Below, in pieces: positions 25,907 through 63,890 of a DNA stretch of 64,000 bases (position 1 is its first letter; each line of letters begins with the position of its first letter). Source of the stretch: Thuidium tamariscinum (taxonomy: Eukaryota > Streptophyta > Bryopsida > Hypnales > Thuidiaceae); contig OX344752.2 in assembly GCA_947034885.2 (NCBI GenBank), positions 8,866,001 through 8,930,000 of the forward strand. Reading direction: 5' to 3'. The notes beneath the pieces are model-generated. The model searched no databases. It saw only the letters and a list, made by a program, of their open reading frames with translations, and was not told the DNA's origin. A program made the translations under genes and the position numbers.

Positions 25907-26160
25907 TGTGCGGACGTCCGAGCGTCCGCGTCCGGCACCCCGTGGACGTCCTGTGACATTTCAATTTCGAAATTTAGTGCGCCCGGTAAAATACGGAGGC
26001 GGACGGCCGCCCCGACCGCGGCGTCAGAGGTCCCGTCCGACCGCCCGTCCGCCTCGACCACGGCGTCGGAGGTCCCGTCTGACCGCCTGTCCGCCACGAA
26101 AGCGATCCCGTCTGCTCCGATCGAGCGCGTCCGCCACGCGTCCGTGATGGTGTCCGCATC
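25907..26160. promoter_or_regulatory. Orphan CGGACG/CGTCCG GC-rich island
   Basis: An abrupt GC-rich block in AT-rich surroundings, built from repeated CGTCCG / CGGACG hexamers with variants such as 'cccgtccgaccgcc'. Several frames are open across it only because stop codons are rare in such sequence. It is the same kind of block as 30270-30530, 33570-33830 and 63655-63890, but I find no gene starting on either side, and no convincing TATA box. It may be a remnant. Confidence 0.6.
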
Positions 26161-28615
26161 GACCCTGATGAGAATGTCTGAAAAAAAAATTAAAACTTTT
26201 CACCGTATAAGGTAACTAGTCAATTTAAGAGCTGAAATTGAATTTTGGGGAGGGGAAATGTCTTAAAATATTTTCCAATAAATTGCCTTTGAAAGACAAG
26301 TGGAATTGACATCTAACCGAAATTGTTTTATAATTTTTGAAGTTTTGTGGAATTAGTTATGAATTTTTGAAGTTGAAAGGGCATAGGGCTTTGAAAACGT
26401 CCACCCCTGCAATGTACACCCTTTGTACATTGCTGAAGGCTACAAAAAGCAACATGTACAAGTAGTGAAAGTAGGCGGTTTTAGGCGCATTGAACTTGCA
26501 ATTGGTGGGGAAATTCATAATTAATTTTTGGAACAATGTACTTGATTACTTGAACAAGTTAACAAGAAGATCAACAAGTTGGTTTTCCCAAAAAAAAATT
26601 AATGATGAAGATTTTGATTTTATAATTCCTTTAGGCGTTAATAGTCAGTAGTCATCAATGATGGCAAATGACCCTATTAAACTGATACTAAAAAAATTAA
26701 TAATTTTGTTTCTAAATTCAAGAAATTTAAATTTTACTAGTAAAAACATTGAATATTAAGTAGTATTAAAATAATTTTAAAATAATTATGAAAATAATAA
26801 AATAATAATAATCTTGAAAACAACATCTTTATGTGGTTACATTGATTCCACATTAACCCCTAAAATTTAGGCATAAAAAAAGTGGATGTGCCTTGTTCAA
26901 CTTTGATTCTAACTTTCAATATAGCCATTTTGGTATTTGACTTAAAATAAGAAAATGAAGCTTGAAAACTTTTCTTTTTATTTGAACTTAAAATTTTGAA
27001 AAATTCCAAGAATTGAAAAATTTATTGCAATTGCAAGTTCTATGTGTTGAAATCCGTCAAACACAATACATTGTCTTTTTCATTCATATTTATTTGTTTT
27101 AAGATCAATCCTTAATTTCAATTGCAATATTCAGTTTTCCATTTAACATTCATTAATGGTGAAAATTTCAAACTATTCCAATATATAGTATAATTGATAT
27201 AATTTTCTTAACTTTTTACTTTAAAATTATTACAATAATATGTAGTTTTCATCAAGCAATTTGTAGAAAAATAGAATATGTAGAAAGTAGAATTTTACAA
27301 TAGAATTTCTCTTGATAATGTATAAAATCAAAAATTTAATTTTCTTTAATAGCCAAATTTGACTTTGAGGTCTTTGTTATTGTAGTTTTTGGTTCAAAAT
27401 TTTTTAAAGGCAAATTGAAAATTATATATAGTGATCTCCATTTATACTTGTACCTTTGGAAGAAATTGAAAGTATTTCGGATTTTTTTTGCTAGTTTTCT
27501 TATATTTATTTTTAATTTTTGTAAAAAAATGATAACGATTAGAATTTTTCTCAAAATCAATTGCTCCCATTTTTGGTTCAATTGATAATCAACCATTGTT
27601 TCAATCAAATTTTTGTTTCAATTGATTTGGTTATTTTTGTTTCAATTAAAAATCAGCACAAAATCAATTGAAACCAAAATATAAATTTTATATCGATAAA
27701 ATTCATAGTTTCTATTCCATTTGGTCAAATATCATCCTTAAGCTAAATTAAGCATATCTTATTTTGTTCAAACATCAATCTTATATTTTTATTACTTGAA
27801 ACTATGAATTTTATATCACTATGAGGAAATTCAAATGATTTTGAGAGAAATTTTAGTCATCTTTTTAGTTGCAAATATTAATTGGTGGGAAAATTCACAA
27901 TAAAATTTAGGAACAATGCACCCTATTACTTGAACAAGTTAACAAAAAGATCGACAAGTTGGTTTTCTTAAAAAAATTTAATCATGAAGATTTTGATTTT
28001 TGACATTCCTTTCGGGACAAGTTTTTAGTATTTTGAAGTGCATTTCGGGCACGAATCCTTTTGGGGTTAATGGCATTTTAGAATTTTGAATCATGATCTG
28101 TCCATGTCATGATTTTATTTAAAATTGCCATAAATTTCTCAGAGCTCCGCAAAAAGAATTTTGTCATTTGAATTTCATTTGTGAAACGTTTGTACACCTC
28201 TGAAAAATATATAACTCTCTTGAAGTTCACCCTAACATACTCAGATTGCAAGTCAGGGCGCTAATAGGTACTTAGACCTTACTTACTACTTAGACCTTAT
28301 ACATCATGCAAATTGTTACACAACCTTATCAAGTATCTATGTGCACAACAACATCTACCAACAATAAATACTATTGATCTCATCCCCCCCCCATGAATAC
28401 GTTTGTCTATCAAGTATCAAAGATCAAAAACATTAATAGCTGAAATTTTCAAATGCTTTCAGTAATTCAAAAAATATAATAGATTTCATTTGGGTTGCCA
28501 TACATTGGTGCTCCGTATATATACTACATATTATATATGCCGCACGTGTACATTCTCTCTATAACATAGACTACATATCATTCTATACTTACGTATGCTA
28601 CTATACTATGCCGAT
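26161..28615. repeat. AT-rich region with dispersed repeats, no gene
   Basis: About 26215-26510 is a third, degraded copy of MITE family 2. About 26507-26640 and 27875-28020 are direct repeats of each other, sharing 'attacttgaacaagttaaca', 'caagttggttttc' and 'atgaagattttgattt'. The intervening 1.2 kb is very AT-rich with many caattgaaa-like runs. No gene recognised. Confidence 0.6.
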
Positions 28616-30130
28616 CTATTCATACGAACACCGAAAGTGTTCAGTGGGAATAGGCCAGTTGAAAGTACTAGTCCAACAATTGATGATGCGTGCCAAACCG
28701 CCCGCATTCTCCGGGCCGTCTTTGCAAGGGCGCTCCAAGTACGCACGAAATGACATTGCCAACGCTTGGTGATCAAATTTGCTCATGCTTGCCGTTTCCA
28801 TGTTCAACTTGTGGTACTCCTTTGACATGCAATCCCTGTTAATTGCCATGGCTATTTTGCACACCGCGTACTCCTCCGTTGCAATGGATAAACTTGGAAT
28901 TACTTGCACATTTTTGTCTTTTTCGTGCAAATATGCAATCTTCGAGGTCACCCACCAACGGTTTTGCAAAGCAGCATCTATCTCTTGTTTGGATGTGAAC
29001 ACGTACAATGACTTCGGTGGTTCTGTAACGTACGAAGTCATGCCCCAATCGCACACTCCAATGTATACGCGCGACTCGTCCGCGGGAAAGTGCAATATAA
29101 TGTTGTCCAGTGAGATATCATTGTGCAAATATCCTGCATCGTGCACCGCATGCATGATATGCAACAACGCCCATGCTAGCTCCGTACGTTTCTTCCGAAG
29201 TCGTGCAAGATGACCCGCGGCAATGACATCTGCATCCGTTGGTGAGCTATATTGCAAGTGCATAGGTATGTTGTCTGGATAAGTTCTATTCAAATGCATC
29301 ATCTTCCGCAAGGTCCCGCCATTCCACCAATATGCATATCCTTCATTCCTCCTTGCATGAACTGCATAAAACCGTATCACTCCGGGATGGCCAATCCGCA
29401 CCACCATGGACTCGTTTGGGTGTTTTGCCTTTGTAAGATGAGGTAGCGTCTGCTGTACATTAGATAGCTTTGCTGCAAACTCCCAATACTCAGGTATTTC
29501 ACGACATCCCCGAATTTGCACCCTCCGAATTGTTGCGTACCCGCCTTTGGTCACGACATCATCACAATAAATCACGGTCGCCGTGTCTGGAAGTGCTATT
29601 AGATGCTTCCTACCTTCCGTCAATTCAATCATTCCATCTTTGATTTTCCACCAACCCATAGATCCTCGTCTGTTCCTAGCAGACGCGAATAGAGCACATC
29701 GGCTGACAAACAATTCAGCCCTTAGAATGACTTGCTGAAATGCAGCATCATGTTCACGGTGAAACTTCCCATACTTCGTTAAGATGGCCTTTGCATTCCA
29801 CAACGCGTCATGCACCTTATTTTTCAATAACTGCTCAAAGCCACTCTTATCCATTTCACTGTGCCATTGTGGAACAGAAACCGCATCCATCAACCGTTGC
29901 CACATGTCGTCCTTGAATTTTTTAGGACAGTCCTCATTGTAGCGAACATACTTCATCTGCAAGGACATCGTGCTCTCCGATTCGTAGAAGTCCACGATCA
30001 CTTTAATCATCATATCATTCAATGCTTCAGAGGGCTTGTTTGCTTTTGCCTCCTCTTTAGATGGACCTGCCACCTCCTCCAGTTTCCTTTTACCCGCCTT
30101 CTTTGTTCGTCCCATCATGATAAAAATCAC
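28616..30130 (-). CDS. Divergent protein-kinase-like protein with long N-terminal region
   Basis: One uninterrupted 504-codon frame. Residues 7-35 are Lys/Arg/Glu-rich (GRTKKAGKRKLEE), a possible nuclear signal. Residues 36-190 match no family I recognise. The kinase-like part (about 190-490) has a loose glycine loop KGGYATI (195-201) and a candidate Lys in EFAAK (221). HPGVIRFYAV is followed by YWWNGGTLRKMM. The catalytic loop is HNDISLDNII (336-345), with Asn in place of the usual Arg of HRD. DWG (361-363) replaces DFG. Catalytic Asp, loop Asn and metal-binding Asp are therefore present, so activity is possible. There is no transmembrane segment. Methionines at residues 1, 5 and 6 could all start translation. 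Upstream is a TATA-like box in a CGGACG array. It may be a host orphan family or cargo of an unknown mobile element. Confidence 0.72.
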   Translation of the reverse strand: MIFIMMGRTKKAGKRKLEEVAGPSKEEAKANKPSEALNDMMIKVIVDFYESESTMSLQMKYVRYNEDCPKKFKDDMWQRLMDAVSVPQWHSEMDKSGFEQLLKNKVHDALWNAKAILTKYGKFHREHDAAFQQVILRAELFVSRCALFASARNRRGSMGWWKIKDGMIELTEGRKHLIALPDTATVIYCDDVVTKGGYATIRRVQIRGCREIPEYWEFAAKLSNVQQTLPHLTKAKHPNESMVVRIGHPGVIRFYAVHARRNEGYAYWWNGGTLRKMMHLNRTYPDNIPMHLQYSSPTDADVIAAGHLARLRKKRTELAWALLHIMHAVHDAGYLHNDISLDNIILHFPADESRVYIGVCDWGMTSYVTEPPKSLYVFTSKQEIDAALQNRWWVTSKIAYLHEKDKNVQVIPSLSIATEEYAVCKIAMAINRDCMSKEYHKLNMETASMSKFDHQALAMSFRAYLERPCKDGPENAGGLARIINCWTSTFNWPIPTEHFRCSYE

Positions 30131-30267
30131 GTCAAAACTTCGAAAAAAAGCAACAAGGGGGCCCCAATAATGTCACCCTTGCTTTCCCTAGGAGGGGAAC
30201 CAATGGAGACTTAAAAAGCCACCAAGCTTTCCACTCCACGCTTGCAAAATGCAAGGGAGAAAACAAG

Positions 30268-30540
30268 AGTGAGGGCGGACGGCCTAAACCGCCCCTCTTA
30301 TACCCTGGCGGACGCCCTAAACCTGTGCAGACGACTCGACGAGGTGCTGTCTACCTAGTCGGGCGTCCGCGCGATCGGACGGCCGCGGACGGGCGAACAG
30401 ATATGCGTCCGCCTCGTCGGACGGCAGCAGTCCGTCCGCCGACGCAATGCACGTCGGAAATGCGTCCGCCCGATCGGTCGGACAGGAAGTCCGCCGTTCG
30501 ATCGATCCGACAGACGACCATGATCAGGCGGGTGTCGTTT
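30268..30540 (-). promoter_or_regulatory. CGGACG-array promoter-like island of the kinase-like gene
   Basis: GC-rich block rich in CGGACG / CGTCCG, about 140-410 bases before the kinase-like start codon. On the minus strand it holds GGGTATAAGAGGGGCGG (TATA-like at 30296-30302), followed downstream by another CCGTCCGCC and a pyrimidine-rich leader. The glycine-rich gene has the same order of parts: array, TATAAGA, CGGACGG, leader. Confidence 0.6.
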
Positions 30541-30552
30541 GCCTAATCCAAC

Positions 30553-31500
30553 GGTCTACTTTGTAGAAGGCCTTCATTTGAAATTTCACGTGAAGAAGGG
30601 CCAAAAAAATATGGAGAGGTTGAAATTTCTTAGAACATTTGTGTTCTATGACAAATTTCCATTTGGAAATTGAAATTGCCTATTTTTTATGAGATTCCAA
30701 AAAATAGGCTCCCTTGCGATATTTGGAGTTTTTTGCTAAGTGCCCTATTCATTTAAAATTTCACGTGAAAAGGGGCCGACAAAAATATGGAGAAGTTCGA
30801 ATGTCATAGGACATTTATTTTCTATGACTAATTTCCATGCCACATTTGAAATTGTCTAGTTTTGATTTTATTTCAAAAAATACGCCACGTAGCCATTTTT
30901 GGGTCTACTTTGTAAATGGCCTATTCATTTCAAATTTCACGTGAAGACGGGCCAAAAAAAATACGGAGAAGTTCGAATGTCATAGGACATTTATTTTCTA
31001 TGACTAATTTCCATGCCACATTTGAAATTGTCTAGTTTTGATTTTATTTCAAAAAATACGCCACGTAGCCATTTTGGGGTCTACTTTGTAAATGGCCTAT
31101 TCATTTCAAATTTCATGTGAAGACGGGCCAAAAAAAATATGGAGAGGTTGGAATGTCATAGAACATTTGTGTTCTATGACAAATTTCCATTTGGAAATTG
31201 AAATTGCCTATTTTTTGTGAGATTCCAAAAAATAGGCTACATTGCAATATTTGGAGTTTTTTGCTAAGTGCCCTATTCATTTAAAATTTCACGTGAAAGG
31301 GGCCGACAAAAATATGGAGAAGTTCGAATGTCATAGGACATTTATGTTCTATGACTAATTTCCATTCCACATTTGAAATTGTCTAGTTTTGATTTTATTT
31401 TAAAAAATACGCCACGTAGCCATTTTTGGGTCTACTTTGTAAATGGCCTATTCATTTCAAATTTCACGTGAAGACGGGCCAAAAAAAATATGGAGAGGTT
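30553..31500. repeat. 176-bp tandem array with three-monomer higher-order period
   Basis: Six monomers can be phased on the core TTTCACGTGAA (one copy CATGTG) at 30587, 30762, 30938, 31114, 31290 and 31465. Spacings are 175, 176, 176, 176 and 175. Monomers 1 and 4, 2 and 5, 3 and 6 are clearly more alike than neighbours, giving a 527-528-bp higher-order unit present twice. For example, only 1 and 4 have 'tttgtgttctatgacaaattt', and only 2 and 5 have 'gtgccctattcattt'. Every monomer includes a palindromic CACGTG-type box. No coding capacity. Confidence 0.9.
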
Positions 31501-31546
31501 GGAATGTCATAGAACAATTGGAGAAATTGGAATGTCATTGAATTTT

Positions 31547-31705
31547 GACTACGGATGAGGAATTAGGGCCTCTCTTATTTTATTCTCATAAAAATTCTAA
31601 ATAGACATGCTAGAGATCACATAGGGAAAGAAAAACACGTGAAAGTTTCATTCAACCTCTTTGGACTACGGATGAGGAATTAGGGCCTCTCTTATTTTAT
31701 TCTCC
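31547..31705. repeat. Short direct duplication next to the 176-bp array
   Basis: Two near-identical copies of a roughly 43-bp segment start at 31547 and 31664 with 'gactacggatgaggaatta', 117 bases apart. They border the end of the tandem array and could mark its rearrangement boundary. From 31706 to 32232 I see only AT-rich DNA. Confidence 0.75.
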
Positions 31706-32232
31706 TAAACTTAAATAAACTAACATGTAAGTCTTCTATTTCTTTTAACCCCCAAATGACCAAGTATTGCCTTGACAATTTTCACAATTTTCAAAATGGG
31801 TCATCAAAATAATATTAGGTTCAAAGGCATAACAAGCATAACCCCAATCAAGTTTTTAGCTTATTAAATTCTACTTCACAATTCTAAGTTGTTAAAACTA
31901 TGTTTCAAATATATGTTCGAGGAGGCATTGTAACCGGAGTACTAGAAAAGAGGGGAAAACATTCCGATGCAATATTCATATTTAAATAATAACAATAGCT
32001 ACACATTGGTTAAATTTAATACTACAGGTCAAAGGTCCCATCTATAGATCCAATATTGTACTCACGCATTTCAAAAATTTGTATTTTCATAAATACTTAT
32101 AGGTTCGTGAGTACCCCTCACCAACATTACAATACCATGCTTGCCACCACCTACGGTACATGGCAGTGGATTACAATCATTACACCGTAGTGCGGACTAG
32201 CCACTACAAGAGTGTAGTCTTTTTGTTGTACT

Positions 32233-33288
32233 TCACTCGGAATTTGAGTTGGTATCATCTCTCTGACTATGGCCTAAAAAACTAGATCCATACACCCCCA
32301 TATATGGTCCTCCACCGTACACGTCTCCCGCTCCTCCTTGTCCATAGTTCCCGTAATGAGGCCCTCCAAAGGTTGGAGGAGGAACTGAATCTCCATAGTA
32401 GGAGCCTCCTTCATTTGAACGGCCATGGTAAGACCCTCCATGATGCCCATAATTTCCATATGAACCACCTCCACTAGACCTCGGATGGTATTGGGAGCCT
32501 TCTTGGGTAGAAGGAGCATTGTGCGCGGTTCCGCAGCTTCCTCCTACGATTTGAGAATGACTTTGCCCACCTCATGGGTCATGTGTACTACGTTCACGTC
32601 CATAGTACCCATTGTAACCATATTGTGGACCACGATCTTCTATGCTTCTCCGCATTGCCTCACGCATTTCATGCTCGTATTGAATGTCCTCTCGAGCTTC
32701 TCTACGTTCATGCCTCTCTCCACCGGCCACGGGTGCAGTAGCCTCTTCAACATCATCATCTGGGACGGGCTCCTGTGCATCCGGCATCACTGTTGCAGGA
32801 AATCCAAATTGGCCTCGATTGGACCATTCGGGCATGCAATCGCTTGCATTAGTCCAGCTCGTATAAATGACTGCTTCCTTGCGATTGAGAGTCGCCACAT
32901 CTTTTCCATATATTGTGCGCCAATCAACATCTTTGTGAAGTACAATCTCTGCCCAGACCATGGCCATGTTCGTATAATTCATGACATTTGGTTTGGAGTC
33001 ATGTATACCAGCATTACGCGTCACTTCATCGTATCGGTGAACAAAGTGCCTACTGAGACACGTGGATGTTTGCCCTTCCCAACGGCGAACTTGTTGCGCT
33101 GCACGGTCCGATGCCCACAATTTGGCAATGTGCGTCATTTTCACGTACTTCTTGCACGTAGTGGCGGTCCAAACTTTCTTTGGTTCACTCTCCCATCCGG
33201 GTTCACCAACACACATTGGATCATTCCAATCATCCCAATTTATGCTTTGGGATTTTCCCTTGTTTTTCTTGTTTTCATCACGAGGCAT
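32233..33288 (-). pseudogene. Glycine-rich protein gene interrupted by one in-frame TGA
   Basis: The frame runs from ATG 33286-33288 for 238 codons to TGA at 32572-32574. It then continues in the same frame for 112 more codons to a TGA at 32233-32235. The first part begins MPRDENKKNKGKSQSINWDDW and contains a Trp-rich region (KVWTATTCKKYVKMTH, WASDRAAQQVRRWEG). An acidic linker PVPDDDVEEA and a charged Arg/Glu helix follow. The part after the stop is Gly/Tyr/Ser/His-rich (SSGGGSYGNYGHHGGSYHG), continuing the YGYNGYYGRE composition just before the stop. That makes one original gene likely. I do not recognise the family. The stop could come from C-to-T change at a CGA codon. Alternatives: a functional 238-residue protein, or readthrough. 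Confidence 0.65.
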
Positions 33289-33554: not shown

Positions 33555-33835
33555 TTGTGGCCAAATGAGCCGTCCGCCTCGCTTCTTATACTGAGCCGTC
33601 CGCCCCCCACCGAGGCGGACGGCCAGATGCTCATTCGACGGCCGAGAGGCGGACGGCAGAATCCAGCGGACAGAAATCGGCGTCCGTTGGATCGCACGGA
33701 CATCGGGCAGACTCACCGAGGGACGGACGACGCGGACGGCGCCCGTCGGGGGCGGACGCAGGGACCGACGGGCAGACGGGCGGACGGCGGCACCGACGGA
33801 AGAGCGGACGGACGGGCGGGGGGTTTGAAACCCTC
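33555..33835 (-). promoter_or_regulatory. CGGACG-array promoter-like island of the glycine-rich gene
   Basis: At least ten CGGACG / CGTCCG hexamers in about 270 bases. On the minus strand it contains CTCAGTATAAGAAGCGAGG (TATA-like at 33584-33590), followed at once by GCGGACGGCTCA, roughly 300 bases before the start codon. Same order of parts as at 30268-30540. Confidence 0.6.
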
Positions 33836-33842
33836 AAAGACC

Positions 33843-34202
33843 TAAGGTAGAAGCACCTATTACAGCCGAAGTTAGTTAGTTAGCAGTTTCAGCATAGTTG
33901 GAGGCACCTTTTCCTATAAAGAATATTTTTGTAGTATTGGCAACTGAAAATTATGAATTTCCAAAAAAAAAATTAGAATTTTTGGACGAGGCATCTAATT
34001 TCTGTAAATTTTCAAAGTAGGACTTAGTAGAGCACCTAAATCTGCACTCCTAGTAAATCTACCTAGATTCTCACACCAAAATCTAAAATAATCAGAACCC
34101 ACCAAGCACAACTAAAGTTTCAAGGTACTAGTGGGGACACTTTGTAAGAAACTCTAATGTCAAACTATGGATACACTGAAAATAATGGGTGCTTCTACCT
34201 TA
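33843..34202. mobile_element. MITE family 3 (TAAGGTAGAAGCACC type)
   Basis: A 360-bp non-coding element with perfect 15-bp terminal inverted repeats TAAGGTAGAAGCACC and GGTGCTTCTACCTTA. The interior ('cagcatagttgga', 'gaaaattatgaatttccaaaa') matches about 24865-25257. It begins at the distal edge of the CGGACG island. Confidence 0.82.
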
Positions 34203-34439
34203 CATCGATACTTGAATTCTTGAAATTCATTGAGTAAGCATGTTACACTGGTTTAGGTTCTGAAACCAGCCAAGTTGATGTTAAATCTTCTCGAAAATCA
34301 GAAATAAATGCTAGATTCTCTTTGCAATTTGCATGCATTTTGGGGAATTTGAACACTTCATGGAATAACTATGACTTTAGGTTTCAATGTTGTGGCAACC
34401 TAGAATTCACCTAAGCGGGTTCTTAAGCAAAATACGGGA

Positions 34440-37400
34440 AGAGGGATCTATTCAATCCCCATTTTTTTTGTTGTTTTCTTAGTTGTTACGCACAATTAGG
34501 ACCAAGACCGGAAACTGGAAAACCCCAGATCGTAAACCAGAAACTACGTTAAGGGACAGCGTAAGAAATCCCGGATTCCGCCCACCTAGCAACCGAGACC
34601 GGATAGGCAATGAGTGGCTACCGAGTCTAGAGATCGTCGGGATCTCTCCCACGTGACCAGACTGGTTTAAACCTAACGGTCGGTAATTAATGCCGGGGGA
34701 AAAAAATATAAGACCAGGGAAGCAGGGCCAGGTCCTGCCACTTTCTTGCACACAGTTCGAGAAAGGGTTTCCGGCCAGAGATTGAGTATTCGGTCTACAG
34801 ACAGAGAGAAGGGATAGATAATCTGTCAATCCGGTCTGGTACATAGTTGAGCGATTAGCACTACGCTAGCTGATAGGTTCTTGAGCGCGGGAGGTTTAGT
34901 CAAGTTGGACCGCGCCTAGATCGTGTAGGCGTCAAGTGAGAGATGGCAGAAGAGGTGCAGGAAGGAAGGATTCTAGCCTTCCGGAATGTGAATCCGGTCG
35001 TGCCAACTGACGCATAAGACAAGCGGGAGCTGGAGGAAGACCTCAGGCAGATAGGCTGCGAGGGGTTCATGGCTCATCCCTGGAACCTGAAGGATGAGGC
35101 GATGGTGGAGGAGCTACTGGCCGGCCAGACCAACGAGTGGAAGGGGACGGTCCGGGCGTTGCCAAAGGAGTGGAGTGCAGCGATGTGGCGCAAGGTGTAC
35201 GCCTTCGAGCAAGGCGGAGATGCGACGGGCACCCGGACGGACAAATTCCACCAGGGGAAGTTCCGCAAGCCCACCAACCCGAAGGACGGCTTTACGGTAG
35301 CAGAGTGTGTGTCTGCTAGACACAAGAGGCTACTGCGGTTCATGATGGCGATCTTGAACCCGGATAGACCTAGTAGGATTACGGTCACCGTAGCCAACAC
35401 CGTCTTTGGTGCGCTGTCGGGAGACAAGAAGATAGATTGGGGGTTAGTTATGAGGGACCGGATGGACCGAATGGTGAAAGGAATTGGGAAATCTAAACCC
35501 TCTCCCATTTCACCATTCCTGTTTCATCTGTATCATTCGTTAGACCTCTTGAGAGAGAAGGAGATGGAAGCTTACGAGGTAGGGGCTACATTGATAGAGT
35601 ATGAGATTGCAGACCCGGAAGCTGAAAATGACCAAGATGAGGAGGACTCCGAGGATGAGAGTCAGGAGGGGCATCAAGGAGGCACACAGGAGGTAGACGA
35701 GGTTCCGAAGGTAGGAAGAGAGGATCCACCTCTAGAAACCCTTGTAGTAGCCGGGGAAGTCCAAAGGTTAGATCCGGTCTGGGAACAGGATCCCTTGCTA
35801 AGGATCCTGCGAGACCTGGAGGATTTCAGAAAGCACCACCTAGAGGAGAGAGGGTTGTTGCGAGGCATAAGCCAAGCCCTAGGCTCTATCCCTCCCTCCA
35901 AGATCATGGAGGTGTTGGGAGAATTGATTCAGGAGGCACATGATAGTCGGGACAGAGAGGAGGTACTCCGGCTGACGAATCAGGTCTCAGCCCTGAGGAG
36001 GGAGCTCCATCACACTCAGGAGGAGCTAGATGAAGAGAGACGCCTCACCACGCAGGCCCGGAACACACTCGGAGAAATCCGAGAGTTCATCACGCATCCG
36101 GGCGAGGTCGTCAACAAAGCCATGCTTTTCGACAGGAAGGTCTTGGAAACATGCAAGATGGTGGGTCCCCAGATGCTTACAACTTTGGTGGCCTACAACA
36201 AGAAAATGGAGGCAGCGCTGGAGAAGTGGCGGTCAGTAGTCACGGAGGTCCAAGCTAGTTCTGCTCCGGTCTCAGGACTGGAAGAGCCAAAGATGGAAGA
36301 GGAGCAGCCGAAGGATCAGCCACCACCAACAACTGTCGAGGTAGAAGCCGGCACATCCGAACCGGCGAAGGAAGAGGATACTAGGACTGAAGCAGTGGCG
36401 GAGGAACCTGTCCCACTGACCCGGATTGAAGAACCCAGGGTTTCTCAACCCGAGAAGACCAAGGAGCCGGAACCCGAGCCGATTGTGTTGAGGGAGATAA
36501 TCCGGGGAACGACACCACCAAGGGAGAAGACCAAGTTCATCACCTTGCTGGACGATTCTCCAAGCAAGTCGCTACCCACGGTCGTCACACAACCGAAGAC
36601 CGGAGGGGAAACAAAGGCAACGGTGCAGGTCCGCTCCATACTGAAGACCGGATCTGGATCCGGGTCACCAAGCAAGGGACCAGCCCGGACTGCCGAGAAA
36701 GTGGGAGAGCAGACCCCACAAAGCAAGATAGTGCACCACCCGCCCATCACCGGATTCAAGAAGAAGACCGCGGAGACATCCAAGGTGAAGCGGAAGGCCC
36801 GGGATGAAGAGGAAGAGGAGTCAAATGAGGAAGATGAGGACTCGGAGGAAGAGACCGACTCCGGTGATGAGTCGGAACAATACTCAGATGCAGACCAGGC
36901 ATTGGCAGAGACCAAGCAGACCAGGGCCAAGGCGCGGGGTAAGACCAAGCCGAAACCCAGACCAGTCAAGATGTACCGGTCTCCGAAGAAGCAGCCAGCT
37001 CGGAAGGGTGCATCGCTTGTCAAGAGGGCGAGGAAATAGGAGAGCATTAATTTCAGGTAGATAGGAAGGCGGCTAAACCAGGATATATTTAGGTTAGGAA
37101 CTTTTGAACTTAGATCGGATCCAGATATGTAGGATCTGTGATCCTATTTTGTTGGTATTTTTGTAGTTTTGTGGAAGTCAACCCACCCAAGTTGTAGAGG
37201 AATGTTACGTGGCATTCTTGGCGGCTGGTGTTGATTCCATTTGCACTTTTAGGTTTTCTTGTAGTTTAGTATTTAAACCCGGTTCGTAATTGAATCCGGG
37301 TGCGCATTATGTTATCTTACTTTCACAAGTTTTTGTGTTGCAAATACAAGTCAGAACCTTTCTGATTCACTCTGAAGTGGACTGTGTGCATGGGACCTTG

Positions 37401-38230
37401 TCAAAGTCTTATGGTGATGGTTAGGATTGCAGCCTTGTGTGGATAAGTGTGTGCTCGGAGGTTCAGTTTATCCGGTCTCTGGACTTAAAGTGAATTCGGT
37501 TTTGATAGGAAATTTGTGCAGGATCCCATAGTGTTTTCTGGAACAGGTCTAGGGAGTATTCGATAGAGATAGACACTTGTAGAGTCTGGGTTTGAGATCG
37601 GGAGCGACCGGCCAAATGCCAACTGAATGGTGATCCGGTCTCTGTAGAAGAAAGAAGGACTAAGTGAGGAAATTCAGCTCTCTTGCATAAGCTACCGCCC
37701 TTATTCTACCAGGGATTAGACTAACTGGGTACTCCGTCGTTGTAGTCTTTGTTAGGATTAGGCAGGAGTGCTTGCGTGACCTGCTGGGTCGGATTAGTCT
37801 CGGTCCAGTTGTGAGGTATTCCGGTCTGTTTGTAGTAGTAGTTTCTTTTTTTTTACTTATAAGTGGAACTTCTAGCACTTTAAAACTTGAAGGGTAGGAG
37901 TAAGCTTCCTTCCTAAACGCCCAAACAAGCAGATCCCTCTTGTTATCGAGGTAAAACTTACACTTGGTTACTATACTAGGGACTGGACCAACTACTAGTA
38001 TTCGGTCTTTAGTCCCATATCTAGTAAGGATAAGCATAAAGGTGGTAAACATACTGGTATAAATAGATAGACTTAGTTTTGAAAGATAAAGGATTGATCT
38101 GGTAATCAGGTCCAAGGAAATCATAGGAACCTTTGAGACCCAGACCGGATCAGTCTTTTGCTTGGGTTTTGTTGTGATAACCACTAACGTATTCCGGTCT
38201 TTCGTCAGCTTTCGACCAAATCCTTTGGGA
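34440..38230. mobile_element. GC-richer insert of unknown type carrying a gag-like ORF
   Basis: Base composition changes sharply at both sides. The segment has a leader with a TATA-like 'aaatataagacc' (about 34705), one long ORF, and a 1.2-kb tail. Both leader and tail hold repeated CCGGTCT / AGACCGG motifs, for example near 34500, 34600, 34830, 37470, 37630, 37820, 38150 and 38190. I found no pair of long terminal repeats and no reverse transcriptase, integrase or protease, so its class is unknown. A non-autonomous retroelement is possible. Confidence 0.5.
34943..37039 (+). pseudogene. Gag-like acidic coiled-coil ORF with early in-frame TAA
   Basis: The frame opens at ATG 34943 (MAEEVQEGRILAFRNVNPVV), is broken by TAA at 35015-35017, and continues in frame to TAG at 37037-37039. 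After the break 656 codons are open from ATG 35069. The stretch around residues 30-180 after that ATG has the feel of the putative plant transposon protein domain (Transposase_32): TVANTVFGALSGDKKIDWG then SPFLFHLYHSLDLL. This is a weak call. An acidic segment (DPEAENDQDEEDSEDES), coiled-coil heptads (NQVSALRRELHHTQEELDEE), a Pro/Glu/Thr-rich linker, a second acidic run and a basic Lys/Arg tail follow. The order resembles gag-like or DNA-binding accessory proteins of plant transposons. It may be translated from the second ATG. Confidence 0.6.
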
Positions 38231-39747
38231 ACGATACACGAGTCACTTTAAGGCTAATTTAATACATTCTAACGCCTTAGAGAAGGAATTGTGCTTTCCT
38301 GTGCTACGACAAATGTTCAAATTATATGTATCCAAAATTCACCTTAGGACCTAATAGAGAGGAATGATTTATATTACCATAGTACGTTTTCAATTTCAAC
38401 AGAAATTAATTTCTTTTGGAAGAATTTGTAATTCTAGGAAATTATAATGATACTAGTCTTAAATATTGGAAATTGTCAATATCATTTGTTGAAATTCAGG
38501 TGATTCAAATTGTTCCAAATATAGTAACACACCTTCTATGACAATTGACAAAGGAATATTCAAATTTAATGAAATTCCAATTGAAAGTTGGAATCCTAAA
38601 GGATCATTCACTTTTGCCCTTGTGGGGAAACATGGGATTTGTGGTAGTACCTACGGGCTGAAATTTCAAATTCGATCCTTGTTTTTAGTTTTTAAAAACT
38701 TCTTCAAAAGATAAAAAAATTGATTAACTTCCATGGAATGTAATTTTTTTCACAATTGATTCCCAATAACAACATCTATGATCTAATGAACTCAAAATAT
38801 TGAAAATAAGGGACGGGGGGTTGAAAAAAACTAGAACAATCTCACCATTGAGATTATTGTGTTTCAATCCCATGTTAGAGCTATTAATGATTTAGTTTTT
38901 CTTTCAATCTTGGACTTACTTGTACTTAAGAATTTTTTGAATAATGAAAATCAAGCCTATTTTTCTTGAAATTTTTGTCTTAGACTTTCAACTCCCATCC
39001 AAGTTCTTCAAATTCCTTCAAAAATTTTAATTCAAGGTCCATACTCCGTACTCCATAGTTCCAAAAAATTCCACGAATAGCGATCAAAGTCATCTGATAT
39101 TTTTGCCACTTTTTCCTAGATAAGTAAAGTACAAGATCCTAAGGTTAGATCCAAAGAAAAGTATTTTCTTGGTTTTCTTATAGTGAACGCAACAGAAATG
39201 ACAGTTTTGAGTGGTTTGTAACAAAAAAATGGCCTTGGTCCTTTAAGGGTTAACAATAAAGGGAGAGATTTATATTTTATAACCATATTTTATTGCAAGA
39301 CATTCTCAACTCTCAAGTTCTAACTTGTAAGGGCCTAATATAACAATTTCTAAACAAATTAGATAAATGTATCACCATACTTTCTACAATTCTACAGTTG
39401 GAAGATGGTGACATTCATGATTGCATTAGAGGATGAGTGAAATTTGAAAATGATGCAATTATACTTGAAAAAAGATTTCAAAATGTGAAAAATTATAGAA
39501 TCCTTCATTTCAATGTAAGTGAATGTAAATATGAAGGAGTGTACTTCAAATGATTTTACCCCTCACTGCCTTACTGGTTTGCATTTAGAAATATGTAAAG
39601 AGTATATGTTTTCTCTATTAAAGTAGGGTGCATACATTTTTTAAATTAATAATGTGTTGGATCCTTGAATCATTCATCAATTTATTTTCACTATTTATTA
39701 TTTTATATGACACCCATATTCCCATAATGCAAAAATGATGAAGAAGC
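37040..39747. repeat. Tail of the insert and AT-rich repeat DNA
   Basis: 37040-38230 is the non-coding tail of the insert. A 174-codon minus frame in it (37660-38184) has no recognisable domain. From 38230 the DNA becomes AT-rich. About 38606-39250 is a copy of the repeat at 595-1750 and ends with 'ggtcctttaagggtt', an ending also seen near 63540. Confidence 0.55.
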
Positions 39748-39786
39748 TAGGGTTTAGGTTCTAGGGTTTAAGGTTTAGGGTTTGGG
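39748..39786 (+). repeat. Short interstitial telomere-like tract
   Basis: About four imperfect units of the plant telomere repeat TTTAGGG (tagggtttaggttctagggt, then ttaaggtttagggtttggg). It lies about 150 bases outside the CACTA left end. Could be chance AT-rich sequence, a telo-box, or a repair scar. Confidence 0.55.
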
Positions 39787-39966
39787 CTTGTCTACACTCT
39801 ACAAAAGTGGACGTCGATGACTCGATGCTATTCGGATAGGGTGTAGGGTTGAAGACTTACTTTCTTTAAAAAATTTAATGTGCATAATGAAACTCAATTT
39901 CACACATACATAATACATTGAACATTGGATGCACTAGTAAAAACGTGTGTTTTCAGTGACAAGTGG

Positions 39967-41589: not shown

Positions 41590-41592
41590 ACT

Positions 41593-56200: not shown

Positions 56201-56615
56201 GCGTAATGACGGGAACAGAACTTGTCTTGACGAGCACAAAGAGAAGCAGGCAGTGTTCCATTTCTTAGGACTACCGCTTCTATGTAGTGACGCTTGAAAT
56301 GACACACACTGTTTCATTATGAGAACAGAACTTTACTTTGGCGTTTCATTTATTTACGACCGTTATGACAAGGGAAATGAAGTAGGTGTTTAGAAATCTC
56401 ACATTTTCCGTGTTCATTTGAAGGAAAACTGTATGTTTCATCAACTAGGAATTGAATGTGTCTAAAAACAGTGATTAGCAAAGTAATTGGTGAAACATGG
56501 CATTCAGAAATTAATGTGTTCTTGCTTTCATTGTGTGTGCAGAAAGCTGTGTTCAGAACGTACCGTGCGTGATATGAAATGACAACTTCGCTATTGAAGC
56601 AGTTGGTGTTCTGAA
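53226..56615. other. Non-coding region upstream of TNP2
   Basis: 3.4 kb of GC-normal sequence with frequent short GAAGTT / AACTTC and TTCAGT words, for example 'cagaagtttcagta' and 'cagaagttata' near 55300-55370. No gene is supported. It may contain the TNP2 promoter. Confidence 0.35.
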
Positions 56616-59600
56616 ATGGCTGCACACTCACAGGACCGACGAGCGAACATTCGTTTCACTACAGATGGATGTGCCCTACGACATATTCCTCTTGGTGACT
56701 TGATTTTGCAGACCGAGCTGCGAGTTGCAACTGAGCAAGATGTGAGATCGTTCAGATGTCCCTGTCGAGATTGCCATGGTGGACGTAGGAAAACTATTGA
56801 AGTTATACGTAGGCACCATACGACTGTTGGAAGAGATCCAACACTTGTGGTATCTATGATTGGTGGAGATCCTATCGATGGCTATACCCCTCGTGGATTG
56901 TGGGTGGAGGATGTAGCATATGACAATGACGTACTAAACGAAGGGGGCGACATACAACACAGTGGTAGTGAAGGTGTAGGTCCAGACACAGAGGTGCAAA
57001 ACACTAAAGAAGACAACGCTCAGAATGTTATTCTGGACGAACATCATGAAGTGCATCGTCAAGTTCTGGAGGCATTTGATCGGGTCGATGCCTTACACGT
57101 TGAAGCAGGTCATGCAGTGCAAGTCCCGGAAGACGATGATGATGGTTGTGATACTATGGATGGACTCGAGGAGTTGTACGAGCAGGCAACCACTCTAGTG
57201 TATGCTGGCTCCAGAAGCAGTGTTGTTTCAGCGACTATTGTCATTCTGAACATGTGCTCAGTGTTTCGAGTAAGCAACCGGTTCGCTGATGAATTGCTCC
57301 GATACTTATCGACTGACCTGCTCCCTCTGAACAACAAGTTGCCCTCAACACACTACATTGCAAAACGTAGTATAAAGAAATTGGGTTTGACTTACAACAA
57401 CGTGCATGCATGTCTCGATGGATGTGTTTTATTTGAAGAGGAGTTTGCCACTTTAGATGCATGTCCAAAATGCCTGAAGTCTCGGTGGATTGAGGGCAGT
57501 TTAGCAATTCCAGCAAAAGTTATTAGACACTTTCCACTTATTCCACGTTTGAAGCATATGTGGAGGTCCATTGAAATTGCAGGTATGCTAATAGGTTACA
57601 CGAAGCATGTAAGCGAAGACGGCATTATGCGTTCTATTGTGGATAGTCTAGCTTGGAAGCATGTTGATAGCGACCCAGTCTTTGGCAACTTCGGTGCTGA
57701 GAAGAGGAACATGCGTTTTGCATTGACACTAGATGGTGTCAATCCTTTCAAACTGAGCAACACGAACTGGTCAACGTGGCCAGTTCTGATTCTCATATAC
57801 AATTTCGAACCATGGTTTGTTACGAAGAAGTTCTTCATATCTTTATGTATCCTGATATTCGGAAAGCAATCTCCAACATCAAAAAACCTAGATGTTTTCA
57901 TTCGACCACTAATGAGAGAGCTGCATGAGTTGTGGACAGGCGTTCGTGCAGTCGATTATTCTCGCCCAGAGGGAGAGCGCAATTTCATCCTACGTGGACT
58001 CGTGATGTGGACGATATCCGATTTCCCAGCGTACGGCCTCATCTCAGGACTCTGTTGTAAGGGGTACAAGGGCTGTCCACCATGTGGACTTGCAACGGAT
58101 GCACGCATGGCGAGGACAGGTGATGTTTTACCGGGAAGGAGAACGAAGGGGTCAAAGATTGTTTATGGAGGCATCCGTCGGTACTTACCACGATATCAAT
58201 GTATCACCCATTCCGGAGAAACAAAAGGTTCAACGGTGCTACTGAAGAGCGGACGGCGCCTTCGGTAATGTCAGGTCTCGATGTTATTCGGTACGCAGCG
58301 TGGCGTCAAGCATACCTTGATCTGGGTGGGAAGGAAAACAGTAAAGATGATCCAGTGCACTAGACCGGAGTGAAGCGGTTGAGTGTACTGTTTGAACTTC
58401 CATACTGGCAGGTACGTATCTTCGGAGGTAAGAGTAATGCTGAAGAGCATTCCATTTCCCTAACAGGGCGGTGAAAGTGTGTAGTTATGAATGAACTTCC
58501 GCTACACTCTCGTCCCGAACTGTACAATTGTACAGTTCAGTGCATCAGCTTTTTTCCGGTCAGTCTAATGAGAGATGCAGTACAGTAATAGTTTGCACAA
58601 GTACAATTCCAATGACACTTGAATGTGTTGTATATCGTGACCAGTATTTATTGATACGACATCTGCTGGACGTAATGCACTGTGAGAAGAACATATGTGA
58701 GAACATTGTCAAGACATTGTTGGCTATGCATGATAGCCCCGGAAGTCGACAAGATGTTGAGAATCTAGGAATATGACCTTAGTTATGGCTTCAAGAAGCA
58801 CAACGTCCGAATGCCGATTTCTACATGCCCCGTGCACTATACATTTTAAACACCGAAGAGCGCAAGGAGTTTGTCGGTATAATATCCAGTATTCGCACTC
58901 CAACAAATTACGTGGGCTCCATCCATAAACGATTAGTGGATGGAAAATTGCACTATATGAAGACGCATGACTACCACGTGCTAATGCAGCAGGTTAGTGC
59001 ACAACTGTACGGTTCTTCTGAAAGCGAGATTGAGTACAACACATTCATTTTGAATTGCAGGAGTCGAGTATGGAACTGTATGTATCTCTTGTAGTGGGAA
59101 CTCCTATTGAAGGAAGTTATATGAAAGGTGTGAGTGTTGCCAATATTTAAGTTTCTGTGTTTCCATGAACGTGTCCATGTAGCAGTGCTAATTTATTTCG
59201 GTACGTGGAACACGTGCACCCGTGGTTTTTTAGCACATTGAACAAGGGATTACTGCTAATTTGAGCTGAATATGCATGGTAGGTACTGCCTGTGGCTGTT
59301 CGGAATGTACTTGACGAGAATGTGCGCATGGCCATCATCAAAATGAGTCGTGTCTTTCAACGCATGTGTGAAAAACAAATACGGTCATGTAATGAACAGG
59401 ACATGATGAATGATGTGGTGATGGCTACATGCATGTTCGAGAAGGAGTTCGCCCCGACATTCTTGAATGTCATGACACATCTTCTAGTGCATTTAGTACA
59501 ACAGTTATTCATGTGTGGCCCGGTGCATTGTCGATGGATGTACCCAATTGAGAGGTACATGAAGACCTTAAAAGATTATGTTCGTACGTATGCACACCCA

Positions 59601-61014
59601 GAGGGCAGTATCGCTGAAGGGTATAGAATAGAAGACACTCTTGGATTTTGTACCGAGTACATAAAGCAATATAAAGGAACAACACAGCGAGTGTGGGATG
59701 GTATGGAAGATGTTCGAATGAATGATGAGATATTGCCTCTCCATGAATCAAGGAAACGGAAAATGTCAGCAGAAATGCGAAGTTATGCACATACTTTTGT
59801 TCTAGAGAACGCTGCATGTTTACAAACATGGCACAAGTAAGAGCATGCATCCTGCTTTTCCCATTTCTCAATTGTTCATGGAAGTATGAGTCTCAGGTGT
59901 TGTTAAATTTCGTTCAGAATTGGCCTCTGAAGAGGTCCGAGGCTGTTGAAGTTGTGATTGATGTTTTGGTGAAAAAACAGTGCAGCAGACGGAAGGTAGT
60001 GGAGGGTGAATAGTGAAGACTGCGTAGGATAAAGCAAAAGTGACAACGGAAATTCTTTAGATGACAATTTCTAACAGTATGTCACACACTGTACAATAGT
60101 TGTGAACGTGAACGCATTTGGGAAAACATGATGACAAGCGTATCTCACATGCCTCCTTGATTTTGTACAGAAAATATGCTGCAACAAGAGACAGGAGATG
60201 GGAAGAGCGTGAGCTGTTTCGAGTGGAGCACAGACGTCGTAGTGCATCAAGAGCGCTCAGATATCCCAGTGATTTGAATGAACTTGCTCCTTTTGCAGAC
60301 TGGTTTCGTGAGCGAATAACCGATGCCAGTAATGAAGGTCTGCACGTTGCCGCTGATATCTTACAGTATACCGAACCACCAGAGCGGTATGCAAATTCGC
60401 ATCGCCAGATGTATTGCTTTGGAGTGCACTTCCGTGTGAGGAGTTCTGAAGCAGCCCTAGTAACAAGGGATTCATGCATTGTGGCATCATTCACTCGAGA
60501 ACTGCAGTGGGGCACTCGAAATGGGCGTCCAAATCAGTGCACTGATGATTACGTGGGGTACATTGAAGAGATTCTAGAATTGGATTATCGAAACCACTGT
60601 ACCACTGTATTGGTTTGTGATTAGGTTAGAGCGTCCAGAGATGTGCGATCTCCGAATGTTGTACGTAACAAGTACGGATTCACGGTTGCTAACTTCAACC
60701 ATATGGATGGAAAAGTGAATGCTAATTCATTTGCATTTCCATTACATTGTCAACAAGTATTTTTCGCAGACGACATACACAAGCGTGGGTGGAAGGTGGT
60801 GTGTCGCATCGATGTTCGTGGTAGAAGATGCGAACCGCAGTTCGGAACAAATACCCCAGAGGTTTTGCAAGTTGGCAATGACGCCGAATTTCCCGGTTTG
60901 CAAGCGTCGATGTTGCAGGCAGATGCAAATAGAGTAGCACATGGTGTAGGTGGTACACACATCATGACATCTAGAGAAGCAGTCATTGCTGAGCAGGTCC
61001 CAATGTCACAGTGA
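56616..61014 (+). pseudogene. TNP2 transposase of the CACTA element, inactivated
   Basis: Recognisable from end to end. The transposase-associated domain has FRCPCRDCHGGRRKT. The TNP2 core has LYEQATTLVYAGSR, HYIAKRSIKKLGLTYNNVHAC, CPKCLKSRW, FALTLDGVNPF and TWPVLILIYN. Then come DFPAYGLISG, HLLDVMHCEKNICENI, the DUF4218 region (VLPVAVRNVLDENVR to GPVHCRWMYPIERYMKTLK) and the DUF4216 region (YVGYIEEILELDY, FTVANFN, QQVFFADD). Likely exons: 56616-58411, one ending at 58992, 59283-59836, 60171-61014. Damage: a frameshift near 58200, after which the frame continues YHPFRRNKRFNG, and in-frame stops at 58361-58363, 58774-58776, 58780-58782 and 60622-60624 (where the family has Trp). TNP2 is the DDE-type enzyme that cuts and moves CACTA elements; this copy cannot make it. 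Confidence 0.93.
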
Positions 61015-61789
61015 ATAAAATGCAGCATGAAACATTTAACGTGAATCGAAGCAAGTGTCAATGAAAGTGTACTTTAGGATGCCTAGAAGACGTTGTTTTT
61101 CAAGTTACTTTTGGAGTGATTTGAACAGGTTGCAATTGTTGTGTTGCACTTATAAAAAAACGGAATGCATCGTTGTAATTCCTGTCAAAGCATATGTTTC
61201 TCTGAAGATTCCCTTGAACGTGGTATTAGGAGGTATCATCTGCAATAATAGTACTATTGTACAATGAATCATACATTCAAATGTCAGCCATGTAGCAAAC
61301 GTAATTCTATTTGCAGAAGTACCAATTTTTTTTTAAACTGAAACACCCAACAAAAGAATAACTATTTTATCTAAAGAAAAATGAAAACCCCAAAAAAAAA
61401 TTTGGGATTTCTGTTTGTAAAACTTTAATTTAATGTGAGCATCCAAAATTTTTGAATTTCTGAAATTTTTATGTTTTTAGCGATGAATGTTTTAATTTTT
61501 TTTGACATTCATATATAAACCTTAAAATAATTTTATATTCGACCGTTATTGTATTATAAAATTCTGATATAAAATCCCATTTATCTGTTTCTCTATTTGT
61601 GTAAATAAGTAGTAATGTATTTCTTTTTATGTATACATGTGTAAATATATGCAGATGTAAATACAATTTTCATTGAAGATCAATGTGAAAGGTACCCTGA
61701 ATTGAAAAACGTTTTCAGAAAAACATTGTGTTACAATGACATTGAGTCCATCTTATGTGTACACGTGTACATATATATATTAAGACTTA
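61015..61789. other. Right flank of the CACTA element and AT-rich spacer
   Basis: The GC-normal sequence ends at about 61320; no CACTA right terminus (…CTAGTG) was found here. The rest is AT-rich without a gene. Confidence 0.4.
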
Positions 61790-61925
61790 TTTATTTATTA
61801 ATTTATTTATTAATTTATTAATTTATTAACTTATTTATTTATTTATTTTACTTTTTCTTTTTCTTTTTCTTTTTTAAAATTTTAAAATTTTCTTTAAAAT
61901 TTTTCTTTTTTCTTTTTTTAAAAGA
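61790..61925. repeat. TTTA / CTTTTT microsatellite
   Basis: Runs of (TTTA)n and TTAATTTA variants pass into (CTTTTT)n and AAAATTTT runs. Confidence 0.9.
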
Positions 61926-63560
61926 TTTGGAACATGAAGTAGTTCTTCAAATTCTATAATTCATGACAATGAATACACAGACCGATGCATGACTTAAGAA
62001 ATTCAAGTGTGCTTGGAGAAATATGGAGTAGAATTACTTCACCAAATCTTTGTATTTTTTAATTGAAATTAGTATGAACTAAGGAAGAACGTTTTTTTTC
62101 CTTGTAACTGATGCAGCCTCTCAGTAAATGTTGAATCATGATGGTATGTATGTGTAGTTCATCCAACTAATTTCACCACTTCAATGATGAACACCATTCC
62201 CAAGAATAATAAAAAATTTCATTACAGTGATCCACTATGTAAGATGCCCAATGCAACAGTGATTGTTGAAGCGATTCTAGAATTGTTCCAAATTTTTGAA
62301 GTGAATACTAACCCAAAAACGAGCCCACGTACGCTAGGGTGTCTACAGCCGCAATGATGTTGCTCAGTGTAAGGTATATGTTTTTTCTCCGTACAACCTT
62401 GTTCAAAAAAATGTCATCCGGAATTTCCATTCCAGACGGGTTTTCCTTTGTGACATTTCATTGTTCTATGGAGTAGGTCTTGTTTGCAACAAACACCACC
62501 GAAAACGATGGATTCTTATAGTGATGCTTTTTCCAACCCTTCCCATGTTTACCCCTAAAAGCCCGCACTTTTTTTTTGGGATGTATAGAAATTTTGGGTA
62601 GGTACCTACTACTTACGAGCGGGGATATCCAGATTTGAGGCTAAAATTTGAATGGAATTGAGTCAATTGACCAATGTGGGGGTGAGGAAGATCTATCATA
62701 TGCACCAAATTTTCATGGCATTTGAAAATACCAGTCAAAGGTTATAGCCTAATATGTTACTTTTTTTTTATAACAGGGCATTTCATGCAAATCAGAGAAA
62801 ATCACTTATTTCATAAACAAGAATTCCACAAATTCTTTTTCTAGAGTTCTGGATACGCGTGAAGTTTTGAATCATTCCATTTTGATGAATGAGTCAAAAG
62901 TGATGTGGATTTTCTGTTTCCGGGTAATTTTGGATTTCCTACTCTAAAATAAACTTTGAAATCCTTTATCTTACCCAACTTCCAATATTTTTGGACGAAA
63001 ATAAAATCGTAGGAGTAGATACATTATTACAACATTTCAAATTTGCAACCATTGGAAATTTGGGATTGGGAATTTTCAATTCCATATTTCAACTGTAAAT
63101 AATGTAGTGCTTTTTATCATTCTCTACTACTACGTATTTACTAATTTTTTCCTATACGTTGTACTATTCCAAATGATTTGAAAATTTTTAAGCATGTGCC
63201 CAACTTCTGTAGGAAAACAAATCCAAAGAAGCACAACCATTTAGGTCATTTTTTCATAGAAATGTGAGCTTGGGAAGTGCAGCTGCCTTGCTTTTCAGCT
63301 TTCGTAGTGTAAAAAAAATGATTTCAATTAATTTGAATGCTTATATCTTGTAATCCACTCGGTGGAAATGTTTGAAATTTTTACCACTTGCTTTTGATAC
63401 TATACAATACAATATCCTACGATCAGATATGTCAAAAAAAGTTTTTTTCCAAAGATTTTGGTACTTGTACTAGAAATGGCAGTTTTGGTTTTTTGGAGGC
63501 AATTGGAGCGCTTTTGGTGAAAGTATATTGACGGTCCTTTAAGGGTTCAAGCTTTAAATA
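61926..63560. repeat. AT-rich repeat DNA, copy of the 18.8-kb repeat
   Basis: From about 62586 to 63550 it matches 18826-19720 in order and orientation, better preserved here. It ends with 'ggtcctttaagggttcaag'. The last bases before the GC island contain a three-fold echo of 'tccaatgttcactttggact' at about 63576, 63600 and 63627. No gene. Confidence 0.65.
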
Positions 63561-63654
63561 TGACTTCTAGAGAACCCAATGTTCACTTTGGACTTGTGGA
63601 ATCTAATGTCGACTTTTCACTTCTGGAATCCAATGTTCAGTTTGGACTTGAAAT

Positions 63655-63890
63655 CTGAGCGGTCGGCAAGGCGGACGCCTTTGTCGGACGCCGAGTCGGT
63701 CGGCAAGGCGGACGGGGGGCGGTCGGCGGAGCGGACGGGCGGATGGCCGGCGGGGCGGTCGGATGACAAGTCCGCCGGACGGGCCTGTCGTCGGACGCCC
63801 CATCCGGCGACGGTCCGCACTGGCCGTCCGCCGGTCCGGTGCCGGACCTGTCTAGGTCTGGCGGCGGACGGGTATATGGTCGGACGGCCC
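63655..63890 (+). promoter_or_regulatory. CGGACG-array promoter-like island pointing to the right edge
   Basis: About nine CGGACG / CGTCCG hexamers, then GGGTATATGGTCGGACGG (TATA-like at about 63871) and a pyrimidine-rich leader (ccccttcattttccctcact) on the + strand. The order of parts is that of the islands at 30.3 and 33.6 kb, read on the opposite strand. A gene of the same set may begin beyond position 64000. Confidence 0.5.

Follow-up and report, generated by a model that had tools for sequence, protein, structure and literature searches.

Four CGGACG arrays at a Thuidium tamariscinum locus as probable cis elements of one giant, four-gene hAT transposon

The question raised by this locus is why a 64,000-nucleotide stretch of the Thuidium tamariscinum genome, referred to here as the window (C4:8866001-8930000 of a 363-Mb genome analysed in 19 contigs), should carry four dense arrays of the hexamer CGGACG and its complement CGTCCG, three of them placed like promoters in front of genes. 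The answer that we hold with good confidence is that the four arrays are cis elements of a single copy of a giant cut-and-paste hAT transposon and that they would be read by a protein encoded by the element itself. This giant hAT measures 22-23 kb when large nested insertions are left out, and its four genes, found in two families (A and C), encode a DUF659/hATC transposase, a kinase-like protein, a Gly-rich protein and a protein with an N-terminal domain and a RING (N-domain/RING protein).

The window contains 25 CGGACG and 23 CGTCCG motifs, 48 in total, compared to a mean of 7.29 and a maximum of 14 in 100 dinucleotide-preserving shuffles of the same sequence. With a cluster defined as at least five motifs per 250 bp, four clusters were observed, at 25911-26144 (9 motifs), 30276-30468 (9), 33571-33814 (11) and 63672-63886 (9), and none in the shuffles; when each island was shuffled alone 500 times, its own motif count was never attained. 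The four arrays described in an earlier note on this DNA are thus real, and the order that it gave for three of them (array, TATA-like box, downstream motif) is correct at each site. The TATA boxes, with window positions taken by eye, are TATAAG at 33585-33590 (minus strand) for the Gly-rich gene, where the closest motifs on the upstream and downstream sides are 8 and 7 nt away; TATAAG at 30297-30302 (minus strand) for the kinase-like gene, where these distances are 6 and 16 nt (the downstream motif as GTCCG); and TATATG at 63873-63878 (plus strand) for the third gene, where they are 3 and 2 nt. Both genes that had been placed behind arrays, the kinase-like and the Gly-rich one, are also present.

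All four arrays fall within the blocks of one transposon copy, designated W, which is split by nested insertions. Copy W spans window 25901 to C4:8960661, 30.7 kb beyond the window end, or 25901-94661 in window numbering (positions marked ext continue this numbering past 64,000). Its length is approximately 68.8 kb including the nested insertions, and the sequence was examined to ext ~82 kb plus the left end. The left terminal inverted repeat (TIR) lies at C4:8960647-8960661, and the adjoining flank (C4:8960662-8960669, outside the window) reads TTAAATAG, the same octamer as the eight bases before window 25901 (25893-25900); this 8-bp target site duplication (TSD) therefore lies outside both TIRs. 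We compared the window and the 18 kb past its end with copies A (C2) and B (C4), two Gly-rich gene loci taken with their flanks. Both copies align piecewise with W across all four arrays, in consecutive blocks at 25.9-34.4, 38.3-39.9, 62.5-65.3 and 69.0-70.3 kb, and the identity between W and A is 94-99% in the main blocks and 88% in the last 170 bp. Since A and B are continuous where the blocks are interrupted, the gaps represent insertions in W.

The right terminus of W (25901-26160, minus strand) consists of the TIR CAGGGCTGTGCGGACG and a subterminal CGGACG/CGTCCG array; homology to A and B ends at this point, and no TATA box or gene start was seen by eye in this array. The kinase-like gene follows at 28616-30118 (minus strand) as a single open frame of 500 amino acids (aa) with a Pkinase match and a conserved counterpart in family C, and its promoter array occupies 30276-30530 (minus strand). 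Between this array and the Gly-rich gene lie about six AT-rich tandem units of approximately 176 bp (30553-31540), which are part of the element and shared with copies A and B. The Gly-rich gene extends over 32236-33288 (minus strand), with an open frame of 238 aa at 32572-33288 and homology continuing to 32236, and is preceded by its promoter array at 33571-33822 (minus strand). Element DNA upstream of this array, recognized by alignment with the copies, ends at the first nested insertion (33823-34391, minus strand) and resumes at 38312-39931 (minus strand) with 98.5% identity to copy A. After a nested CACTA transposon, which is outside the hAT proper, element DNA aligning with A and B resumes at 62524-64000 (plus strand) and carries the third promoter array at 63672-63886; the start codon of the N-domain/RING gene is just beyond the window end. 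From this arrangement, the array at 25.9 kb is read as the terminus and the other three as promoters.

Copy A is 23,028 bp long (C2:44438982-44462009) and copy B 22,138 bp (C4:5247938-5270075), with end points computed by hand. Both start with CAGGGTTGTG and finish with CACAGCCCT followed by A or G. A full family-C element of 22,158 bp was recovered at C8:20677401-20699558 with the TSD GATGCAGT on both sides; it sits within the leader of a family-A Gly-rich gene. Each of the four copies examined is bounded by an 8-bp TSD (CTTTTAGG for A, GACAAAAG for B, TTAAATAG for W and GATGCAGT for C). The TIRs are short and start with C/TAGGG in both families (CAGGGTTGTG and AGGGCTGTG preceded by C or T in family A; CAGGGATGAC and CAGGGTTGAC in family C), which is the TIR consensus of hAT elements. 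The left TIR 15-mer occurs at 53 + 62 = 115 sites genome-wide and at 0 + 0 in the reversed control. The transposase frame of copy A matched the hAT C-terminal dimerisation region above the curated cut-off (3.7e-8); DUF659 was unmatched in this copy, where the frame searched was partial. The open family-C transposase (1,089 aa) matched the full DUF659 domain (1.9e-35), the transposase core of a plant hAT lineage, and Dimer_Tnp_hAT above the curated cut-off (9.9e-10). Its N-terminus shows a CKAC...HL pattern by eye, with no BED match in the Pfam search. The array-bearing element is a hAT transposon, because the hAT dimerisation region, DUF659, 8-bp TSDs and C/TAGGG termini occur together; CACTA termini, a 3-bp TSD and TNP2 were found solely in the nested insertion at 39932-62523. 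The family-C transposase (C8:20694296-20697562) also carries a C-terminal extension of approximately 440 aa past the dimerisation region, acidic and then basic by eye.

Family C encodes relatives of every family-A protein, at 43-72% protein identity overall (tblastn): 55% for the Gly-rich protein, 56% for the kinase-like protein, 58 and 67% for parts of the N-domain, 44% for the RING part, and 43, 72 and 51% for parts of the transposase. The gene order is the same in both families except that the segment holding the Gly-rich and kinase-like genes is inverted, and in family C the Gly-rich promoter array is the element terminus itself. The ratio of nonsynonymous to synonymous substitution rates (dN/dS, NG86) between the families is approximately 0.19 for the kinase, 0.22 for the Gly-rich protein, 0.22 for the main transposase part and 0.34 for the RING part, values that are rough with a dS of 1.2-1.9, near saturation. 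For 11 open Gly-rich copies of family A, compared in 55 pairs, dN averages 0.014 and dS 0.025.

The window kinase matches Pkinase at 1.5e-5, its 25 bits falling short of the curated cut-off (31.7), and retains HxD...N and DWG by eye. Its comparison with solved structures gave 29 weak matches (best E 0.028), and no relatives were confirmed among viral contigs. The Gly-rich protein is 354-359 aa long in the open copies examined. Against Pfam, only one of four members of this family (not the first) gave a hit, zf-C3HC at 9.1e-4, and the family profile gave four matches to solved structures (best E 0.53). The coding sequences behind the arrays had been thought unrelated; this stands for part of the gene set, but the N-terminus of the N-domain/RING protein is homologous to the Gly-rich protein (32% identity over residues 4-160). 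The two proteins have conserved Cys and His residues in common (C45, H53, C77, H81 and H84 in the numbering of the first sequence) that could bind zinc. In family C, a single open frame (C8:20689005-20692058, at least 1,018 aa) holds both the N-domain and the RING. The N-domain is present in two proteins of one element, followed in the first by a Gly-rich tail and in the second by a coiled-coil/RING tail, a pattern that points to an old duplication inside the transposon.

We further analyzed the promoters of three genes in W, four in A and four in C. Arrays were found in front of every gene and at both ends in the copies examined. Each of the eleven promoters has a TATA-type box preceded, within 350 bp, by 4-20 CGGAC/GTCCG motifs, which supports the promoter-like layout first seen in the window. 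In the nine accessory-gene promoters, the TATA box has motifs on both sides, one at 3-8 nt upstream and one at 2-32 nt downstream; in the two transposase promoters the array is present, the 28-38 nt upstream of the TATA box are motif-free and no motif lies downstream. The number of motifs in the Gly-rich promoter differs among copies. The ratio of C>T/G>A changes at CpG to those at other C/G was 0.88 in the Gly-rich array, 2.07 in its leader, 2.26 in the Gly-rich coding region and 1.26 in the 3' flank; these ratios are weak, the array alignment being noisy, and the unraised CpG decay in the array would fit either an unmethylated state or selection on the motif.

The genes of the element are linked genome-wide. 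The Gly-rich protein has at least 152 genome matches, which identifies it as a repeat-borne gene, and the kinase-like protein at least 89. On the basis of identity, 75 of the 150 Gly-rich matches scored (of 1048 candidates) were assigned to family A and the other 75 to a more distant kind (61-69%). A same-strand kinase lies downstream within 8 kb of 51/75 family-A copies and within 60 kb of 63/75, and an opposite-strand kinase within 8 kb of none (0/75). Among the distant copies, a listed opposite-strand kinase lies 5.2-6.4 kb downstream of 18/75, with only 19 distant-type kinases among the 86 scored of 656 kinase candidates. A total of 42 family-C transposases were scored, and 38 have a listed same-strand Gly-rich gene within 70 kb upstream; in 36 cases the distance is 16.3-24.2 kb. 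No such pair occurs on opposite strands within 25 kb; with 42 of 827 transposase candidates scored, the linkage counts are lower bounds. These 42 transposases are 92-98% identical to the query (the query itself aside) and 24 are free of internal stops, which supports the proposal that the arrays have spread recently.

By analogy with known systems, we propose that CGGACGG is recognised by an element-encoded DNA-binding protein, either the transposase or the pair of Gly-rich and N-domain/RING proteins. The terminal arrays would then serve in assembly of the transposition complex, the role played by the AAACGG repeats of maize Ac, and the arrays flanking the TATA boxes of the accessory genes would couple transcription of the element to its own protein, possibly through autoregulation or through recruitment of an anti-silencing activity comparable to VANDAL/VANC or Spm/TnpA. 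A more ambitious version, which we offer only tentatively, is a new self-regulating lineage of giant hATs in which CGGACGG is the end-signal and the switch of every promoter, the Gly-rich and N-domain/RING proteins are its readers (possibly zinc-binding), and the kinase and RING ligase act on host chromatin or on the transposase, making the system an independent hAT counterpart of VANC anti-silencing.

An alternative that we consider unlikely, though deserving of serious attention, is that the protein binding the arrays comes from the host, perhaps an activator of the GC-box type, and not from the element, which would simply gain expression in this way. Consistent with this idea, the motif occurs in several CAGGG families and in one CACTA context, and has been conserved despite diverged element proteins. 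However, the array at the family-A right terminus, with its apparent lack of a TATA box or gene start, argues for a role in transposition, and Ac supplies a precedent for repeats at the ends (PMC3260210). It is less probable still, and on balance quite improbable, that the accessory genes are host genes or fragments captured by chance as passengers and the internal arrays scars of smaller hATs that merged. The N-domain common to two element proteins, the inversion of the Gly-rich and kinase-like genes between families, and the family-C Gly-rich promoter array that doubles as the terminus would all be in keeping with such a history, but both families retain the same genes, at dN/dS values far below 1, and each gene keeps the core promoter layout. 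A modular origin is in any case compatible with a present function.

The earlier note had favored either a dispersed regulon, with the arrays acting as host enhancer-promoters of unrelated host genes, or a mobile promoter unit. In favor of a regulon, the array-TATA-array order does precede differing coding sequences. A genome-wide search for motif-TATAAG-motif recovered 59 sites in 363 Mb compared to 1 in the reversed control. In the first 30 of these loci in the order listed, 22 front the transposon's own kinase and 7 its Gly-rich gene (the window Gly-rich locus and copy A included); the remaining locus (L057) contains none of the element genes and is an end of a different CAGGG family. Because 29 of the 30 loci examined front element genes, and since every window array is inside one TIR/TSD unit, a host regulon is unsupported and we regard it as extremely improbable; the CGGACG promoters appear to form an intra-transposon regulon. 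The mobile promoter unit was right in spirit, as the promoters do travel, but as parts of a transposon. The probability is slighter again that the arrays are subterminal repeats of the CACTA (TNP2) element in the window. TNP2 and DUF4218 do lie between the third and fourth arrays, and another TNP2-like stretch (ext 81 kb) has an array next to it, but copies A and B run continuously across the insertion site without the CACTA. This candidate was rejected, as the CACTA has its own termini and ATG duplication (39932-62523) and all four arrays are outside it. The four arrays occupy fixed places in one TIR/TSD unit, which excludes plain GC-rich satellite DNA as their explanation.

Several observations weigh against the preferred explanation, that the arrays are cis elements of a giant hAT read by its own protein. 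The distribution of CGGACGG is wider than this element: genome-wide, pairs of the motif number 3060 + 3159 compared to 210 + 187 in the reversed control, most of them, with L001, L006 and L007 among these, beyond the assigned set. A 3.8-kb CAGGG element at C1:1003091-1006927 (TIRs CAGGGTTGTCATA, TSD ATATAGGC, end points computed by hand) has its ends at the arrays L002/L003 and L004/L005, and these CGGACG-rich ends indicate that the motif is common to several CAGGG families of this genome. A kinase relative (55% over residues 29-120) lies behind the array at L008, and one array adjoins the second TNP2-like stretch at ext 81.2 kb. A same-strand family-A Gly-rich gene is found within 80 kb at only 16 of 48 left-TIR sites (C1-C4); the remaining sites may be deletion derivatives or relatives. 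The genes are also imperfect: the copy-A transposase has stops and a frame break, the window Gly-rich gene is truncated, the family-C kinase of the copy examined has one stop and N for D in the DWG motif, and the family-A N-domain and RING lie in separate frames in the copies examined. Finally, the proposed function of the arrays rests on analogy, and the motif has been kept across families approximately 45% apart in protein, unlike the fast turnover reported for VANC-target motifs.

Elements of the hAT type are usually regarded as small and single-gene, and Ac/Ds has a TIR of the C/TAGGG type, as does the element described here. TnpA binds the subterminal repeats of En/Spm, and the recombinases of Polinton/Maverick, Teratorn and Helitrons differ from the hAT transposase. 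Maize Ac is 4,565 bp long with a 5-exon transposase, and several AAACGG repeats in its terminal 200 bp bind the transposase, according to PMC3260210. The present element resembles Ac/Ds in its 8-bp TSD, its hAT transposase and its short subterminal hexamer repeats, which in Ac are transposase-bound in that same account; it differs in being 22-23 kb long with four genes, in having arrays at internal promoters as well, and in its hexamer, CGGACG. PMC10398659 describes VANC21 of the Arabidopsis Mutator-like element (MULE) VANDAL21 as binding clustered motifs and inducing methylation loss, VANDAL21 repeats as contracting and expanding, and TnpA of Spm as an element protein whose activation of the element was correlated with DNA demethylation. 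A second protein besides the transposase and clustered short noncoding motifs are features common to VANDAL21/VANC, in that paper, and to the element described here; VANDAL21 belongs to another superfamily and the VANC motifs are family-specific, whereas CGGACGG is common to families A and C. The likeness to En/Spm TnpA would lie only in the proposal of an element protein activating its own element; the transposase superfamily and TIR of En/Spm (CACTA) differ, and the CACTA of the window is a nested insertion. In size and in carrying several genes, the element is comparable to giant DNA transposons such as Polinton/Maverick, Teratorn and large Helitrons as treated in a 2019 review of giant eukaryotic transposons (PMC6431247), in whose main text the term hAT does not occur. 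Neither a multi-gene giant hAT nor its end repeats were found in the portion of the open-access literature covered, a scope that excludes Repbase, preprints and most subscription papers.

A hAT of this size, with the same genes under constraint in two families, suggests that a plain cut-and-paste transposon can develop into a system of several genes governed by a regulatory network of its own. Its discrete CGGACGG sites and the stop-free family-C transposases make it tractable for studying how end recognition, transcription and escape from silencing are coupled. When the genome is annotated, copies of the kinase-like, RING and Gly-rich genes belong among the masked transposon genes and not among the host gene families.

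The nested CACTA transposon (39932-62523, plus strand) is 22.6 kb long, with CACTAG...TATAGTG termini and a 3-bp ATG duplication assigned by eye, and contains TNP2 (56616-58268) and DUF4218 (59328-59840), accounting for the TNP2 transposase in the window. A further CACTAT terminus lies at ext 70,280, and DNA resembling the TNP2 region at ext 76.8-80.0 kb. Two other insertions, at approximately 34391-38312 and at ext 65332-68954, are 3.6-3.9 kb long and show, by eye, TGT...ACA ends and 5-bp duplications (AATGT and CCGAT). Their outer 1.5 kb yielded no terminal direct repeats, and the first holds a 656-aa frame without a Pfam match. Outside the element, two frames at 20866-23181 belong to a gene resembling NBR1, a selective autophagy receptor, with PB1, NBR1 Ig-like and UBA matches above the cut-off and ZZ below it, and a receptor-like kinase frame was recognized by eye at 8.9 kb.

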